Source: Chromera velia (Eukaryota; Sar; Chromeraceae). Taken from it: a stretch of 21,511 nucleotides of DNA. The DNA is taken from the NCBI GenBank assembly GCA_018398765.1, contig JAHBMJ010002389.1, positions 15,001 to 36,511 of the forward strand, in the 5' to 3' direction. Below the pieces are notes generated by a model, which saw only the letters and a list, made by a program, of their open reading frames with translations, was not told the DNA's origin and ran no database searches. Both the position numbers and the translations under genes were made by a program. Below, piece by piece: positions 6,035-14,700 of the stretch (the first letter of the stretch is position 1; every line of letters begins with the position of its first letter).

Positions 6035-7081
6035 TCACTCAACTCCCAACTCGCCCCAATCACAGTCGTCAGTAATACAACCCAAGAGGAGGCCAACGTC
6101 TCCGTACGCACTTTCATCCTCAGCAAACATCTGCATCAAGTCGGACGCAGTCTCCGCGTCCACCTGCCCACTCTCTCTCATGCGATCGACTTCGTCCGTT
6201 GTGACTTTGTAGTACGGAGGATCCTCGTGACCCGGGAAGGCCAACTTTTCCGATGCTACGTCCTTACTTAGCGCGATGCAATCACGCCCCCTACGGACTT
6301 CAATGATCTTCTCGATTCTAGTTTTCACGCAGTCAGAGAACTCGACCCACGTGTACGTCTTTCCTTGCCACATATACCTGCAGGCAATTCAACGCATGCC
6401 GAGAAGTGCATGCATATGAAAAAAAAAAAACTTACCACATATACCTGCAGGCAATTCAGAGCATGCCGATAAGCAAGCCACGTCGGTGTAAGGGCGGTCC
6501 GATCGTCCCTAGATTCCGTTCCGTCTCGCCTGACTTCTCGCAGCTTCTGACCTGATCTGTTGCCGCGCTGTGGATTTTGAATCTGCCAGCTGGATGCATT
6601 GAGAAAATACACATGCAGCTAGGCTGGCCTGCATTGACCAGAGACTTTCTTTAGACAATTAATCCGACATGCATACCTGGCTTTCCTGTGCTTTTGTGCT
6701 TTCGCATCTTTCTCGAAGTCCCCCTTCGGGACTGGCTTGCAACACCTGCATTGACGGTGTGTGTGAATGTGTGAAAGGGAGGGCAAATCCATCAGTGGTT
6801 GACCATGCACCTAGCTGAGCTTGGTGATCTCACACGGATGCACACACATGCATGGATCGATAGGTGGACCTTCGAGGCTGCAGGCTTCCTTCCTACACCG
6901 GAGACATGCGTTGAAATCAGTCTTGCCTGTCAGTTGAAAAGGAAGAGTCTGAATAGCGGTGGGTCCACCAGATGAACATGCATTCTTTTTCTCTTCACCG
7001 AGCTCGGATCACTTACAGGCAATCTGTCAGGGCCGGTCGGAGTGTGTGTCTGCTTATCTTCCTGTTGTGTCTCTCGACTCT

Positions 7082-7118
<37 letters not shown>

Positions 7119-7982
7119 GTCTGTCTGTCTGTCTGTGTGCACCTGTTCGTCTTGCATGGGCACAGCTGACTGACTGACCGACCATGGATCTGGCATGTAG
7201 ACTTTTGATGGCCGTTGCTTCTTCATGAGTGCACGGAAGTCCACCCTCCCTTTTTCCTCAGGTTTCTTTTCCTCCTCCTTCTTTGTGGGCTTTTTGGCTG
7301 GGGCAGGGACTGAGGCAGATGGCTTTGGCCTGGGCCATTGGGCGTCTTTGGAAAGCTCTTTTTCGACTTCCTCTTGGCTGGCAGGAGCGGAAGGTTTCGT
7401 GACGGGTTTCTTCTCAGGTTCCGTTGGTGATACCGTCTTTTCTGGCCCCGGGGGAGCTGGAGTTTCTTCAGTTTGCGTCTCTTCTTTCGGTGCAGGCGGG
7501 GACGCTTCAAAAGAAGCTGGCTTGATTGTCTGATCCCTAGTTTCTGGTTGCGCTGAATTCGGGTTTGCAAACACGTCTGTGGAAGAGGGGTCTATGGGCT
7601 CAGATGGTTTCGGTTTCTCTCCTATCACTTCCGTTTCGTCCTCGCCCTCATTTGCCTTCCCTTCAAGGAGACCGTCAACATCCCCAGCGGAGGGTCCTGT
7701 ATCTGTGTTGGCACTGTGGGAGCCTTCAATGTAAACCTCCCCGACTCCTGTCTGCAGATCCAGGGTCTTTTTTGTTCTGGGTGTGTCAGGCTGTTCGTCT
7801 TTCTCTCCGTCTCCTCCCGGGGGTGCTTGCTGCTCGGGTTCCGCAGGTGTTGGAGATGGAGAGGGCGAAGGTGTTGGGGACGGACCCTTTGCCTTCATTC
7901 CATTCCAGAGAAAGTAGCCACCACCTCCTAACACAGCCACCACACTGACTACAATCAGAACCTTCAGAGGCGAGGGAGCCAT
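6035..7982 (-). CDS. Single-pass membrane protein of unknown function, three exons
   Basis: Model: 7982-7183, 6745-6677, 6377-6035, giving 403 residues. Both junctions are phase 2 and agree exactly. The start is the ATG at 7982, which places a hydrophobic segment at residues about 8-26, followed by a Lys pair: a signal anchor or single membrane span. Residues about 30-250 are low-complexity Pro/Glu/Lys/Thr, probably an extended linker. The last 150 residues look folded, with mixed charge, several Cys (a Cys-Cys pair begins exon 2) and a Trp/Tyr-rich segment, and end in an acidic tail. I recognise no family. Donors are GTCGGT and GTATGC. The acceptor of exon 3 is duplicated upstream (see 6364-6469). 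Confidence 0.72.
6364..6469 (-). repeat. Duplicated splice acceptor of exon 3 (39-nt direct repeat)
   Basis: The segments 6364-6402 and 6431-6469 match at 36 of 39 positions. On the gene strand each copy holds the intron end (TTGCCTGCAG) and the exon start (GTATATGTGG). The copy at 6364-6402 carries the acceptor that fits the reading frame. The other lies 67 nt upstream inside the intron and is followed at once by GTAAGT. The 28-nt spacer holds TGCATGCATATGAAAA. Confidence 0.85.
7086..7138. repeat. (GTCT)n tetranucleotide microsatellite
   Basis: About thirteen GTCT units with one interruption, inside the first intron of the membrane-protein gene. Confidence 0.95.
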
Positions 7983-8405
7983 TTTGCAAAGAACGTTTGT
8001 TGAAGTGCAGGAGAAGCACCAACCAAGTACAAAATCGCACCAACGGAAGAGATCGAAATTTTGCTGAGGGTGCAAGCCAGATGTCACCTGATTGATTATT
8101 TGCTAGCTCAGAGGATCAGTCCCGTTGTGCAAAAGCGGTGCGTGATTCTATGTATAGGTACCTGCTTTGAGCCTGATTCAAAGCTCAATCTTGAACTTTG
8201 CGTGCCTCTAAGCGCAGCACAGAGTGAGTCGATCGTCGGACGCCCCTGAAAAGTGCGTGTGCTTGTGGGATGTGTCTGAAGATTTGCTTCGCCAAAAAGT
8301 CATTCACAAAGAAGCCGGATTCATGCAGGTATCACATTCAGCGCCGTCCTTGCATGCATATAATATCGCGACAAACAGATCGAGACGGTTATGTAATATG
8401 GCGAA

Positions 8406-8447
8406 TGCATGCATGCATGCATGCATATAATTGTGCAACACAATTAT
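8406..8447. repeat. TGCA microsatellite followed by a perfect hairpin
   Basis: About five TGCA units lead into ATAATTGTG-CAA-CACAATTAT, a perfect 9-bp stem with a 3-nt loop at 8427-8447. It lies about 430 bases upstream of the membrane-protein start. TGCATGCA is a known ApiAP2-type binding word in apicomplexans; a regulatory role here is a guess. Confidence 0.6.
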
Positions 8448-8752
8448 TTCAAATTTAATACCGAAAATAATTATACGTACCCGGCCAATTATAAACAAAA
8501 ATCCAAAAATCTCTCACATTGGGCGCGCGCGCGTGCATGCATGGCACCTGTGCATGGTGTGACTTAATCTGTCAGTCAGTCGGTATATAAGCTGCATGGT
8601 CTTTTACCGATCAGCGGTGGAGTTAAAAAGGTGGGTGTCTTAATTGAAATGCTTCGCGAACAACGTCGAAGGTGCATGAGTGCCTTAACTTTAATGTTAC
8701 GTACAATATATGAGTTTCTAATTTTTTTAAATTTATATTCGGAATATTTCAT

Positions 8753-8989
8753 TAACCCCCCTAACACTCCAGTCTGTGTTAAAATAAATTTTTCAATGCT
8801 GGCCGCACCTGCGGCGCGGTTCTTTCAAGACTTTTTGCGTCTTCCACAAAAAAATTTAAGTGTACTTTATTTTAGCTGCGTCTTCGGCACGCCACTTTCA
8901 AGTTAAGCCGTGCCTACGGTGCAGGCGTTTCAAGTCTGGCCGCACCTATGGTGCGGCGTTTCAAGTTTACTGGAGTGTCAGGGGGGTTG
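8753..8989. mobile_element. MITE-like element, 237 bp, with 20-bp terminal inverted repeats
   Basis: The left end AACCCCCCTAACACTCCAGT (8754-8773) and right end at 8969-8988 are inverted copies with one mismatch. TTTCAT flanks the element on both sides (8747-8752 and 8990-8995), a likely 6-bp target duplication. Inside are four related 27-28-nt units at 8802, 8875, 8907 and 8939. Each is a GC-rich hairpin or its decayed form followed by TTTCAAG; the last is perfect (GCCGCACC-TAT-GGTGCGGC). No coding capacity, so it would depend on a transposase elsewhere. Confidence 0.7.
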
Positions 8990-9257
8990 TTTCATCATCC
9001 CCCCCCAACCTGGGCCTACCTGCCATATAAGTCTTTAGCTGAAAAAAATGTTGCACTTTTAGATACTTTTAGCAGAAAGTCGCGCATGTGAGTCGATAAT
9101 GTAAGTAAAGGAACCAAAGTTTCTAACTATCACTGAGCTGATCAGCTGTGTTTAGCTGTGCCAGAATTACTTCCACGTGCAAAGCACGCAATATGACTTA
9201 TTCAAGTTAATTCCGGTTAATTCGATCGGCTCTTTACACCATCTCATGAGCGCAGTA

Positions 9258-9934
9258 CGAGGCGACGTACAGTGGTAAAAAAAAAAAAAATGAAAACGTC
9301 TATTCTTTTTTTTTAAAAAAATTTAAAATTTTATTGTATATATAAAAAAAAATAAAGGTTAAATGACTAGATTCAACTAGAGTTTGAATCATATCTAGGA
9401 TCCCAGTTTCACTTTTAGCTTGGTAGACGCTTAAAAAGATTGACCAAAACTAGCTTTGACTAGAGCTTCGAAATGTATATCATCCTAGATATCGTCAAGG
9501 AGCCAGTCAAAGAACTTCTCTTCTGTCTGCTCTTCTGTCTGCATCCATGCATCCATCCTTCTTGTCACTCTTTGTATAGGACAAAAGAGAGCTCCCTTTT
9601 CCCTTCGCCCGCCCGCTCACCTTCGTCCCTGTAATCTCCTTTTATGATAGTCACTGCGTGCAGTGCCATACATGTAGACTTCATTCATTTTTCAATTAGC
9701 ATGAATGGTGAAACGATGGACCGGATCACTCCCTCTGTCTCCCTCGTCTCTCACACTTATTTGGTCTATCACCTAGTCCATCACCCGGCATCCCTCCAGT
9801 GAGGAAGTTAGTTTAAAAGTACTTCTAAAAGGTGTTTCTAGAGGTGCCCTAGGAAATCCTTCGTAGAAAAAAAGAAAAAAAAAAAATCTGGAAAGGTCTT
9901 TTTTTTTTTTTTTACCACTGTGCGTCGCCTAGGT
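9258..9934. mobile_element. Candidate non-coding element with short terminal inverted repeats
   Basis: AGGCGACGTACAGTGGTA followed by a poly(A) run at 9260-9277 recurs inverted at 9913-9930 with one mismatch in 18. GCAGTA flanks it on both sides (9252-9257, 9935-9940), though at slightly different distances from the inverted repeats. No open frame of note inside. It could be a decayed DNA transposon or a foldback repeat. Confidence 0.5.
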
Positions 9935-10531
9935 GCAGTATGCTTTCCTGATATTTCCTGATAGGGACCAAGGATAGTTAAATGTAGCAGTGCCATGTAT
10001 AGATCAGTACAGCTAAGATATGGACAGCACATGTCTCCAGTTCTGCCGGGGCACTACAAGTAGGACTTCAGTCCTTGTTTGTTTCCTCGGTCTCTACTAT
10101 ATGTTGCTTCATTAAGAAAAAACATAATTATTATGAAACGGTTAACCGTCATATATATTAGTGGCTTTATTCATAATCATCTACATAACTTTAGAAAACC
10201 GTCTGAAAACGTCAGTGTTACGTCACTGCAATGTCCCATGCATTAATAAATTTGATCGGTTCCTGAAGCTGCAGGAATGTAGGCCAGGAATGACCTCGTT
10301 CGGTCTGTACGTGCTGCGAACGCCGCTCACAAGCATTTCCTCATATTTCCTCCGGTGAGTCGGAAACCTCTTTTTGTTTTATTTTTCATTGTTCGACTAG
10401 ATTTTATAATGAAAACATATTTACTAGCATATTTAATAAGTCAGGGTAATGGTTATACCGCCTGCTAAGATTACCAGATCTAGTAACGTTACTTGCCAAC
10501 GTTCGATCTAGGCGAAACATTCAGACCACAT

Positions 10532-11699
10532 TCATTCGACCACCCCCATCTCTTCGTCCTCTGCATCGTCCCCTCCCTCTCCTCCCTGTACACACGCAGA
10601 CGTATGTCCCTGCGCCCCTCCACTGCCACTGGCTGAGGAGGGCTGCAGGTCCATCGCGCCCCCTTTCTCCTTCCCGCCAGCTCCTGGCCCGCCCAACGGT
10701 TCCGATACCACCTCACCCTGGGAGGCAGGAGCTCCTCCCGGGGCAGCTGCTGCAGCAGCACTCACAGGACCCTCCGGCAGATCTCTTTCTCTTTGACTGC
10801 TTTCGCCCTGACCCTGCACCACCACACCTCTAGATGAAGTGTAGCCCCCTCCCGCCTGCTGAGCCTGAATCGACGCAGCGGCACCGGAAGCCACGAATTG
10901 GGTGGCCCGGGTTGCTACAGCCCCCCCACCCATTCCCCCGGCGGCAAGTACAGAGAGGGGGACTGGAGACTTCGGCGCACCCCCCCCCTGTTGATCGTGC
11001 TGCCCTTGCGGGACGGAAAGTCGACTGTGCTGGTTTTGGGCTACTCTACTCTGTGAAATCCCACCTATGAGAGCGCGGGCGGGGGAAACAGGAGAGCCTG
11101 TCGGGTCCCCTACGGCAGAGAGGGAGGGAGACCGCTCTGGGTTTGCGGGAGGTCTGACCTGGGTCGGACCCATAGGCTGAAATAGGGAAGAAGCGCTGCT
11201 CGGGGAGGCCGCAGTGTTTCCCCGTCCGCCCATCACGAACGGGAGCGGACCCGGTCCATTTATCGGCAAGTGGGGGGGGGCCATCCCTGACCCCCCGACC
11301 ACGCCTTGAGGGCGAGCGCGCTTGACTGCAGAGCTGTGCGAGGACGTCCGAGAAGGGGAAGGACTCTGGAGAGAAGGGAGGGTGATCCCCCCGGCTGCCC
11401 CACTTCTCTGGCGGCTGGGAGACGCTGCATAGGCCTCTCTGTTACTCATCAACTGCGCAGACATTGGGCCTATCTGTGAGTGTGTCTGCTGCTGCTGCTG
11501 TTGCTGAGACGAATGTTGTCTCTTGATGCCGCCGCTGCTGTGAGTGTGAGAGACGGGAGGTGCAGCTCCTCCCCCAGTGCCCCCCGACTGAGAGGGCCGC
11601 CGAGAGGGCAGCGCCCCCCCCGGTAGGAACGTGCCCGGAGTAGAGAGGATGCTCTGGATTGGGAAGGTGGTGAGGGGGGCGCCCCGCACGGTCCCCTCG

Positions 11700-11730
<31 letters not shown>

Positions 11731-14700
11731 GTGTCTGGACCCCTGGCTGTTGTTGGGGTGGAAAGTGGCCAGCAGCCGCCGCCTGTGCGAACTGCGCAAT
11801 ACCTTGTCCGTAACCCTGGTGGAGTTGGCTTATCGGCCAGCAGTGATGTGGCACGAATTGATTCTGTTGAGCGAGCCAGAAGGCCGAGAAGTGGGCCTTT
11901 GCACGCCTCTCATTGTCAATTCGCTGCTTGAAAAAGGAGTTCTTGTCTGCGGGATCAGTCTCGTCGTCACAGAACGGACACTTCCTGTACACACACATCA
12001 ATATGCATGCATTTATTTTCAAACAGAATTCTGTATGTGTGTATGATTTTTTTTTCATAAAAGAATTCTGTATGAAAATGAATGCATGCACAGAATGGAC
12101 ACTTCCTGCGCAGACGCATCAAATCAGTATGCACAGACAGACAGAGACTCATATCTGGATATGCTCACTGAAGAATAACGTTTCTCTTCTAAAATAGACA
12201 GGACACCTGCATGGCGCCTTAGTGTCAGACAGACAGACAGACAGATTGCATGCGAGCCAGTCGATGGCTTTATGGACGCGCGGAACCTCTCTCGATGTGA
12301 CAACCTGTCTATCTGTGTGCGAAGACATAAAGCAAAATAAATAAATAAAGAAAGAAAGAAAGAAAGAAAGGCAAAGAGAACGGAAGGAATGACGCGGCCG
12401 ACCGACCGACCGACCAAATGAAGTCGTCGTCGTCCATCCGAGCCACGGTTTCCTCGTCCATGCTCATCACCGTGCACTTCACGTGAAACCACCGACCCGC
12501 AGGGCACTGCAGCCACTCAGGCCCACACATACAGAGGTCCACTGTCACACGCGAAATCTCTCACACGTACATGCTCTTTCTCGTCCGCTCTTCCCCTCTC
12601 TCTTTCACGGAGGGAAGACGGACATACAGTAAGTGAGGAAGGAACATGAACATACAGCCACACGTGCAATTGAGGACAAGAGAGAGAACTGACATCGTCC
12701 CCCATGGCACATTCCACCATATTTTCCGGATACCGCTGCAAACAGAGAATAAACACAGCACGGAGAGAATGCATGAAGCAAGGCATTGAGGAGAGAGTAT
12801 CTTCATCCATCGCCTCCCCCCCACAAACAGCCGAAACGCGGGAATGAAAAAGCCGGTCACTTTAATACGAAGACAAACGGGGAGAGTGAAACACAGGAAG
12901 GAGAACGTCACTCAACCCCACCATCTACCAGAGGCCAGCCAGCCAGCCGGCCCTCTGAAGAAAGAGAGATGGATGGAGATCAGCATTTCGCATGACGCAC
13001 GCACAAAGGACGCACGTACGACCCCTTTTCATAACGCTTCCCTACACGAGCAAACCCATATTTGCGTATTCCAAATCTTGGAGGTCCGATTGACTAGAAT
13101 ACAACGGTACTTCCCCATTAATTATTGGGGGGGTATGGGTGGAAGGAAAGACGTACGCTTGCGCACACACAGTAGTTCCAGGGTCCCTCCTCGTCAGACT
13201 GGATCGCCGGCTGCTCTTCTATCGGGGTGTTCTGCACACTGGCTTGCATAGCCGTGTTGTACTGTTTCTCCCTCAGCCGGTCCTTGTACTGTGTCCACGC
13301 ATGACCCAGCTGCTCATCACTGCACACAGACAGAGAGAGACAACACAGACAGGTATCCAAGCATAACTGCGTGAAATGGTCTGTCTGCGGACATGAATGC
13401 CTACACAGACAGTGCGTGCACACACAAACTGCACAACCAACGCTCACGAGAATGCACCCACCGCAACATAAGAGAAGAGACGGATGCCCCCAAACAGAGT
13501 TGCGGGGGTGCTACCAAATACACAGAACACACAGTTTTTTCTTCCTTCCTTCCTTCTTGTTTTTGCGTGCCCTCCGATGGACTGACAGTCAGGAGACAAC
13601 GTGAAAATCATGTGAATTTCTCCTCTGAATCTTGAATTCTCGAGATCTTCCGAGAAGTTTGAGAGAGACGAACGAGACAACAAAGATGGCCCCACCTCAA
13701 TTGAACAAACAGGTCATTCACAACACTGGGAAGGAAGAGACGAAAACTACGGAAGGGTTGGAGTTCCGTACATCAGCCTGACGAGAAACAGAAACGAAAG
13801 ACGAACGGACAGCAACCTACCCACCAACCCACCCACCCATCATTTCACTCAATCACTCACTGACTAACTAACTGACCGACCTAAGAGCGAAGGCCCCATG
13901 GATCGTCTGGTAGTTCGCGTTCGCACTGTGGGGCCTCGAGGTCAAGGCAAACGCGTCAAACGCTGCATGTACCACAGGACAGACACAAAACAAACAAGTC
14001 CAGGGACACAGACATCAAATCGTGAACACGCACAGAGACAGAGAGGGCAAAAAGACTGAAGGGAAGAAAAAGACACACAGAGAATCGGGGGAGAGAAACA
14101 AGTACAGGCAGAAGGAAAGGGATCAATCTACTTTCTTTGAAAACAAAGGAGAGCTCCGCATGGGGTCTCTCACAGGGAAAGCAGACCGAGCAGATCGATC
14201 TATCGTTTGATTCTTTTCAAGCAAGGGGTCGGAAGGAAGGTGAATAGGGAGAATGGCAGACAGGCAGGAAGAAAGGAATGAATGAATAAAGAAAGGTCAG
14301 AAGGAATAAAGAAAGGTCAGAAGGAAGGTGCGAAGGGAAGAAGCAATGCAGGAATAAAAGGATGCACAAATGGATGAATGGATGGATAGATGAGACAAGC
14401 AAGAAACGAAAAAAGAGATTCAGGAAGGAGGGAACGAGAATTCTCTCCTTGCTCGACTCACGGTCGAAGGTAGTCATCGAATCCTTCGCACGCACATAGA
14501 GGGTCTGCTCAAGTTCGCTTACCTGCAGCATGCATTCATTTTCATACAGAGCATGCATTTATGAAAATGAAAAGAAATGCACGCACGCATGCACATAGAG
14601 GGTCTGCTCAAGTTCCTTTACCTGCAGTACAGCAAAAACAAACAGACACAGGCTGACAAATATGCAAACATACACGCAAATCTACACATGTAAATATGCA

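Follow-up and report, generated by a model that had tools for sequence, protein, structure and literature searches.

Short repeats between long, variable target duplications often occur at splice acceptors and appear to lengthen introns in Chromera velia

We analyzed a 21,511-nt stretch of the Chromera velia genome (contig JAHBMJ010002389.1, positions 15,001 to 36,511 of the forward strand; hereafter the 21.5-kb window) together with the 177.8-Mb assembly of 4040 contigs on which the genome-wide searches were run, and we describe a dispersed family of short sequence elements, each copy of which typically lies between two copies of its target. The inserts, mostly 30–100 nt long, often sit at the ends of introns and appear to lengthen them while the protein remains readable. 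The duplications around them are long and uneven and fit no standard kind of jumping gene.

Ungapped extension placed three direct duplications in the window, each spanning an acceptor-like site and the start of an open exon on the minus strand, as had been claimed in the original prediction made from the window sequence (Table 1). The acceptor-like sites read TGCAG/GTATATGTGG in case 1, TACAG/GAAGTGTCC in case 2 and TGCAG/GTAAGCGAAC in case 3 (the slash marks the putative splice site), and the open frames entered from the downstream copies began with YMWQGKTYTWVEF..., KCPFCDDETDP... and VSELEQTLYVRAKDSMTTFD..., respectively. By this measure the copies were separated by 24, 87 and 57 nt, where 28, 86 and 62 nt had been given. 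Two of the spacers had been described as palindromic and as sharing a 22-nt stretch. The 22-nt word CTGTATGAAAATGAATGCATGC indeed had two exact matches in the window, one in case 2 and one in case 3, and the case 2 spacer was palindromic, with 29-nt arms that were 93% complementary; the arm in case 3 was inverted but partial. The case 1 spacer held only TGCATGCATATGAAAA and an A run, and its element is a weaker member of the family.

Table 1. Positions of the three duplicated acceptors and their elements in the window (position 1 is the first nucleotide of the window)
Feature	Position	Strand	Basis
Case 1, upstream (intron-side) copy, acceptor and exon start	6431–6473	-	Direct repeat D4, 43 nt, 91%; holds TGCAG/GTATATGTGGTAAG
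Case 1, element, TGCATGCATATGAAAA and A run, weak member	6407–6430	-	Sequence
Case 1, downstream (exon-side) copy	6364–6406	-	Acceptor AG 6379–6378; exon from 6377; open frame YMWQGKTYTWVEFSDCVKTRIEKIIEV
Case 2, upstream (intron-side) copy	12089–12122	-	Direct repeat D7, 34 nt, 85%
Case 2, element, palindromic	12002–12088	-	Arms 12004–12032 and 12062–12090; 22-nt word at 12068–12089 (+)
Case 2, downstream (exon-side) copy	11968–12001	-	Acceptor AG 11986–11985; exon from 11984 (KCPFCDDETDP...)
Case 3, upstream (intron-side) copy	14586–14627	-	Direct repeat D5, 42 nt, 93%
Case 3, element	14529–14585	-	Most of the 22-nt word (14528–14549, -) and an inverted, partial arm
Case 3, downstream (exon-side) copy	14487–14528	-	Acceptor AG 14524–14523; exon from 14522 (VSELEQTLYVRAKDSMTTFD...)

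The upstream copy of case 1 diverged at 6431–6445 (-), where the duplicated acceptor and nine bases of exon were directly followed by a donor-like GGTAAGTTTT; this copy could permit a micro-exon or recursive splicing. Elsewhere in the window, a repeat search returned three related 29-nt repeats at 8791–8956 (66–83% to the first) with GGCCGCACCTGCGG-like words. At gathering scores, the window had no Rfam match.

The spacer words recurred throughout the genome, as the original prediction had anticipated. With up to 2 mismatches, the 22-nt word had 482 matches (250 + 232) and its A-variant 825 (429 + 396), and the reversed-pattern controls had 0. The inner 16-mer GAATTCTGTATGAAAA gave 222 + 179 exact matches (control, 0) and the 14-mer TTCTGTATGAAAAT gave 642 (321 + 321; control, 0 + 1). 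These are counts of words and not of elements: an element can hold several, an array holds many, and the lists overlap. A search for a viral origin of the element arm returned 0 exact matches in viral_contigs. Ten other stretches picked irrespective of the element (95.7 kb, 5 kb of it N) contained several direct-repeat pairs, mostly of low complexity; a few pairs in L044 and L048 held one short word alone (TGCATGC, TTTTCAT or ATGAAAA). The CTGTATGAAA core was in no repeat pair of these 95.7 kb, and no case there was comparable to the window, so the three cases in 21.5 kb form a local cluster. At L046 (C2100:10001-17381), a long array of the 8-nt word GATTGGCT and its variants occupied positions 2079–2684.

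Loci for closer analysis were drawn from the first 100 matches listed per word. The first sample comprised 60 loci chosen on the 22-mer, 60 mostly on the A-variant, and the window, together 126 clusters; left and right flanks were compared by local alignment against a threshold set at the 99th percentile of 400 flank swaps. A direct flank duplication exceeded this threshold in 110 of the 126 clusters. The duplicates were 13–66 nt long (median 39.5, interquartile range (IQR) 30–48), with a median ungapped identity between copies of 0.959, and 23 of 92 pairs were identical. Around single elements, the two copies stood a median of 66 nt apart (range 28–139). Because this sample had been chosen by the right end of the element, loci were resampled by the inner word. 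In the resulting unbiased sample, duplication was found at 47 of 54 loci (35/40 and 12/14), with a median length of 40 nt (range 16–55, n = 44, three of at least 80 nt left out). Long flanking duplications like those noticed in the window were present at nearly all sampled copies.

Head-to-tail units, each a copy plus an element, formed tandem arrays in 22 of the 126 clusters and were absent from the remainder. The array at L175 (C3687:11000-12300; listed matches 11272-14611) was satellite-like, with a unit of ~119 nt that contained the element core, and accounted for 24 among the matches listed, mostly at 119-nt spacing. In two near-identical contig pairs, the arrays had three units each (L023/L110, 96.4%), or three units at a contig end versus seven, within 3 mismatches (L035/L109, 99.1%). 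Such arrays are consistent with plain tandem duplication, that is, minisatellite growth of an exon start with the spacer inside the unit. However, single-element loci carried one element between two copies of a locus-specific flank, and flanks unrelated to each other adjoined a common spacer family. Recurrence of the spacer refutes tandem duplication as a full account, which we consider extremely improbable, whereas growth of the arrays by this process is likely.

The element arm had the 33-nt consensus AAAAAGAATTCTGTATGAAAATRAATGCATGCA. Arms of ~33 nt were inverted in a number of copies and covaried by subfamily, GTAAATGC with GCATTTAC. The commonest right ends in the 22-mer sample, which was chosen for that end, started at or near TGCATGCA, and the inner CTGTATGAAAA core was better kept than the outer end, partly as a matter of selection. 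In the unbiased sample, the sequence adjoining the target began at many positions along the arm; these ragged ends did not bear out the idea of an element with defined ends. Of 290 junctions, 189 could be placed on the arm, and microhomology was counted only where the arm abutted the target and missed at least 3 nt, with 300 shuffles for comparison. Left junctions of both samples (n = 29) showed 1.34 nt of microhomology versus 0.38 ± 0.14 nt in shuffles, and right junctions of the unbiased sample (n = 17) showed 1.35 nt versus 0.64 ± 0.23 nt; 0 of 300 shuffles reached either value. Junction microhomology as in target-primed retroelements was thus present in the pooled left and unbiased right junctions, and so were target-site duplications of variable length.

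The interior was scored in the 42 unbiased elements whose flanking copies stood no more than 130 nt apart, leaving out five longer ones. Of these 42, 8 contained an inverted core (one mismatch allowed), making the palindrome a frequent form but not the rule. At least two cores in the same orientation were present in 14, of which two (L135 and L181) were two-unit arrays. Repeated and inverted cores are expected if a template was re-used or primed from both ends. The native DNA just outside the duplication favored TGCA (14/92 at one position, at loci chosen for that end). In the 22-mer sample T was scarce (8%) just after the left nick, and the right edge showed GC/A, which probably reflects overlap of TGCA with the element end.

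These features bear on two alternatives. One is a miniature inverted-repeat transposable element (MITE) moved by a transposase of unusually long and loose stagger, with ends that eroded later. The covarying inverted arms and the TGCATGCA-type starts agree with it, but terminal inverted repeat (TIR) transposases typically produce target-site duplications of constant length, and the lengths observed here were spread over 13–66 nt. In addition, the unbiased ends fell at many arm positions with microhomology, the inverted core was confined to 8 of 42 elements, the inner CTGTATGAAAA core outlasted the outer end, and neither fixed TIRs nor a constant duplication length was found; we therefore regard a MITE as unlikely. 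A fixed-stagger integrase or DNA transposase is disfavored for the same reason, since the duplications are long and variable.

The other alternative is ordinary repair of staggered breaks with captured filler, which has been put forward for Daphnia neointrons; the filler here would be an abundant short donor. The variable duplications, the microhomology and the patchy AT-rich fillers all fit end joining, and staggered breaks leave direct repeats in Daphnia neointrons according to the part of PMC4202315 covered. However, the exon-intron repeats given there are 4–12 bp. Generic filler capture should also yield diverse sequences, and it is disfavored because the filler is a single family (825 A-variant matches versus 0 in the control). 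In our judgement this explanation, too, has a low probability.

Coding continuity was evaluated in conserved genes. From 92 loci listed, 20 exon-side frames were tested with Pfam, and four of these scored over the cut-off (L029, L170, L101 and L132). Frames starting at the duplicated acceptor matched MTHFR_C (1.6e-16, from exon residue 3), CobN-Mg_chel (1.2e-22, residue 1), pantoate ligase (8.4e-9, residue 1) and DUF4215 (1.1e-6, residue 3). The other 16 gave nothing over the Pfam cut-off, a CLN3 match in L094 being below it. Among 30 frames picked without knowledge of the exon side, only L062 (EGF) and L066 (RED_N) were over the cut-off, and a PEPcase match in L015 was just under it.

In a magnesium chelatase H (ChlH)-like gene, the exon ending in ...ELTPYYK joined to the exon-side ELEENWG... 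aligned with solved ChlH at E 1.3e-51; the junction was free of gaps, and the sole gap was a single residue far upstream. In a serine-palmitoyltransferase-like (SPT/AONS-like) gene, ...GNLPVARK joined to LCDEHQMKI... matched solved homologues without a gap (best E 6.3e-11). Judged from these alignments, the exon-side acceptor would keep the protein continuous in both conserved genes, in agreement with the original prediction that the protein is left intact. The upstream exon stopped well before the upstream copy in both genes, indicating that the intron pre-existed and that the element is not itself the intron; the donor was visible in the SPT-like DNA and deduced from the frames for the ChlH-like gene. 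The upstream copy encoded the same first residues in three genes (ChlH-like, MTHFR and pantoate ligase) before running into element sequence and a stop. The inward arm TGCATGCATTTATTTTCATACAGAATTC had no stop codon in any of the three frames when read by eye, so that splicing to the upstream acceptor would append residues encoded by the element ahead of a stop.

Splice motifs were counted in 140 duplications, from which duplicate loci and lengths of at least 80 nt had been dropped, and compared with 200 random genomic draws, open reading frame (ORF) segments and local flanks (n = 280). TGCAGG was present in 29 duplications versus 5.1 ± 2.2 in random and 6.1 in ORF segments (flanks 16/280), and CAGG in 72 versus 39.0 ± 5.0 and 45.1 (flanks 78/280); 0 of 200 draws reached either count. 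CAGGT was present in 30 versus 8.1 and 9.3 (flanks 20/280). Enrichment was stronger where GT followed CAG (30 versus 8.1) than where CAG preceded G plus a base other than T (51 versus 31.2), and T at exon +2 after G was already present in 8 of 21 acceptor-like sites of the genome; selection for a re-spliceable AG/GT is possible. TGCAG peaked within ~10 nt of the outer edges of the duplication, read inward. An acceptor model based on the pyrimidine tract placed 36 of 140 duplications above the random top 10% (14 expected), a weaker result than the motif test, and at its loosest setting a stricter test that combined the tract with an open frame gave 31/140 (22%) versus 8.5%. For the less strict motif [ACT][CG]AGG there was no excess over ORF segments (71 versus 66.1). 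Exons were poorly resolved by a codon-usage model in 120-nt windows, which passed 31% of ORF versus 14% of random windows at score 6 and was kept as an aid only.

From these tests, the share of copies that lie over an acceptor would be between about one-fifth and one-quarter, or higher. Insertion away from acceptors was also common. Had duplications been equally common there, the original prediction would have given way to simple tandem duplication; acceptor motifs were far above chance, but numerous duplications had no such motif, and that of L085 spanned a donor-like CAG/GTGAGTGAG. The enrichment may reflect a preference for acceptors or the survival of splicing-neutral insertions. The frame was open for at least 60 nt on both sides of the duplication in 125 of 138 cases versus 71% of random sites.

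The motif data also bear on the possibility that the copies are introners in the strict sense, i.e. whole new introns at AG/GT within exons, whose donor would be the upstream GT and whose acceptor the downstream AG. The CAGGT excess, the donor-like site at L085 and donor scores that were likewise raised (33/140 above the random top 10%, p 0.0054) are consistent with this. However, the intron pre-existed in the ChlH-like and SPT-like genes, T at +2 was already frequent at acceptor-like sites, and a test for de novo introns found no excess of frames open for at least 148 nt on both sides (50/138 versus 39% of random sites). We consider strict introners very unlikely.

Forty-one joined empty sites were prepared and 13 of them were searched against the genome. 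One paralogue bears on the empty alleles that had been proposed as a check: L176 (C1968:7500-8500), 92% identical to L085 (C189:18200-18850) over 291 nt, held one copy of the duplicated stretch and no exact core, which supports the duplication being the derived state. The L085 sequence after the right copy does not align to this paralogue, which is hence not a clean empty site. Approximately 20 nt between the left copy of L085 and its element were common to the two loci.

We think it an evenly balanced proposition that the element copies represent one short mobile sequence, AAAAAGAATTCTGTATGAAAATRAATGCATGCA, template-copied into staggered double-strand breaks of ~40 nt. From the sequences we infer the break, the template, the enzyme, the order of priming and the use of the distal acceptor in RNA, as follows. 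Nicks on opposite strands, mostly 20–60 nt apart, would open the site. Priming would follow from a single 3′ end or from both, often through a few matching nucleotides, on a shared template whose end reads ...AATGCATGCA. The template may be RNA, copied by one of the many reverse transcriptases of the genome, in which case the transcript would end in ...AAUGCAUGCA. Sloppy copying with possible restarts would produce ragged ends and repeated cores, and priming from both ends would produce a palindrome. Gap filling would leave two copies of the target stretch, and the resulting repeats may expand into tandem arrays. Where the duplication covers an acceptor, the downstream copy would retain a working acceptor, and the upstream copy and the element would become the new 3′ end of an existing intron. 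Copying a single template from either or both of the 3′ ends agrees with ends that are ragged and microhomologous, with repeated cores and with the occasional palindrome. Reverse transcriptase domains (RVT_1) were abundant in a profile search, with 1759 first-look candidates, of which at least 150 scored over the cut-off.

Several observations weigh against template copying into breaks. Among genome matches to the 13 joined empty sites searched, none was a clean empty site, and 16 of the 126 clusters had no duplication above the threshold. Nothing was conserved inward of the 33-nt arm, and the inverted core belonged to a minority of elements. The uniform right ends of the first sample partly reflect selection by the 22-mer pattern, and its right junctions were uninformative on microhomology (2.11 nt, both observed and shuffled); the six unbiased left junctions taken alone (2.17 nt) lay within the shuffles (highest 2.33). 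No clear endonuclease consensus was found at the nick sites. The searches identified no template gene, parent element or enzyme, and linked no RVT_1 to element sequence. A duplication of ~40 nt is also long for target-primed reverse transcription.

A more specific form of template copying is, in our estimate, doubtful: a dedicated activity, composed of a reverse transcriptase and a short RNA with telomerase-like re-use of the template, that writes the ~33-nt sequence at ~40-nt breaks and prefers intron-exon borders, perhaps during transcription. If true, introns would be extended steadily at the 3′ end by a mobile or break-healing system, and such sites would acquire a second acceptor upstream that competes with the first. 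We know of no counterpart to such a system. Among familiar retroelements, L1 usually has target-site duplications that are seemingly shorter than those described here, and the CRE-clade element SLACS has a target duplication of ~49 bp.

Comparisons with published systems refer to the parts of the cited papers that were covered. The original prediction had likened the arrangement to introner elements. Similar to the introners described by Gozashti et al. (2022; PMC9860276), the elements are short, gene-dispersed repeats whose duplications would contribute to the supply of splice sites, with the protein kept in most introner families. Unlike some of those introners, which have 3–9 bp target-site duplications, the elements have variable duplications with a median of ~40 nt and ragged ends, and in the tested genes they appear to have lengthened an existing intron at its 3′ end. 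The copies are short and dispersed, and their position inside introns is supported in the conserved genes and not for every copy; their duplications are not short, and in the ChlH-like and SPT-like genes the element does not make up the whole intron. The word "Chromera" is absent from the main text of that paper. The introner elements of Amoebophrya (PMC7789003) are also found in alveolate introns, with inverted and direct repeats and no general transposase, but their direct repeats are 3–5 nt and inverted repeats 8–20 nt, and the element is the intron itself. L1 twin or dual priming (PMC2837659) resembles the present case in placing inverted fragments of one template between target-site duplications, with microhomology at the target junction; unlike L1, the Chromera elements showed no poly(A) by inspection and no long parent element, and the template would be only ~33 nt. 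Daphnia neointrons (PMC4202315) share staggered-break direct repeats around inserted intron sequence but differ in repeat length (4–12 bp), and no single recurring filler family is described in the part covered. The CRE-clade long interspersed elements (LINEs) of trypanosomatids (PMC12278014) have target duplications of varying size but are autonomous and specific to spliced-leader genes. In a 2025 survey, direct repeats near introns were 4–30 bp (mean 11.4; PMC11782384). The main text of Woo et al. (2015), to which the check was confined, contained no "palindrom", "tgcatgca" or "tgca". In the literature searched, we found no description of duplicated acceptors this long with a recurring spacer, and the claim of novelty is based on that search.

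This family bears on how introns grow and on how mobile DNA can persist inside coding sequence. Duplications of ~40 nt are long enough to hold an acceptor and the start of an exon, so an insertion at the edge of an exon can be spliced around. The combination of a variable stagger and microhomology would suggest a chemistry of insertion that is unusual at this size. Each such copy is a natural experiment in acceptor choice, with two near-identical acceptors some tens of bases apart.

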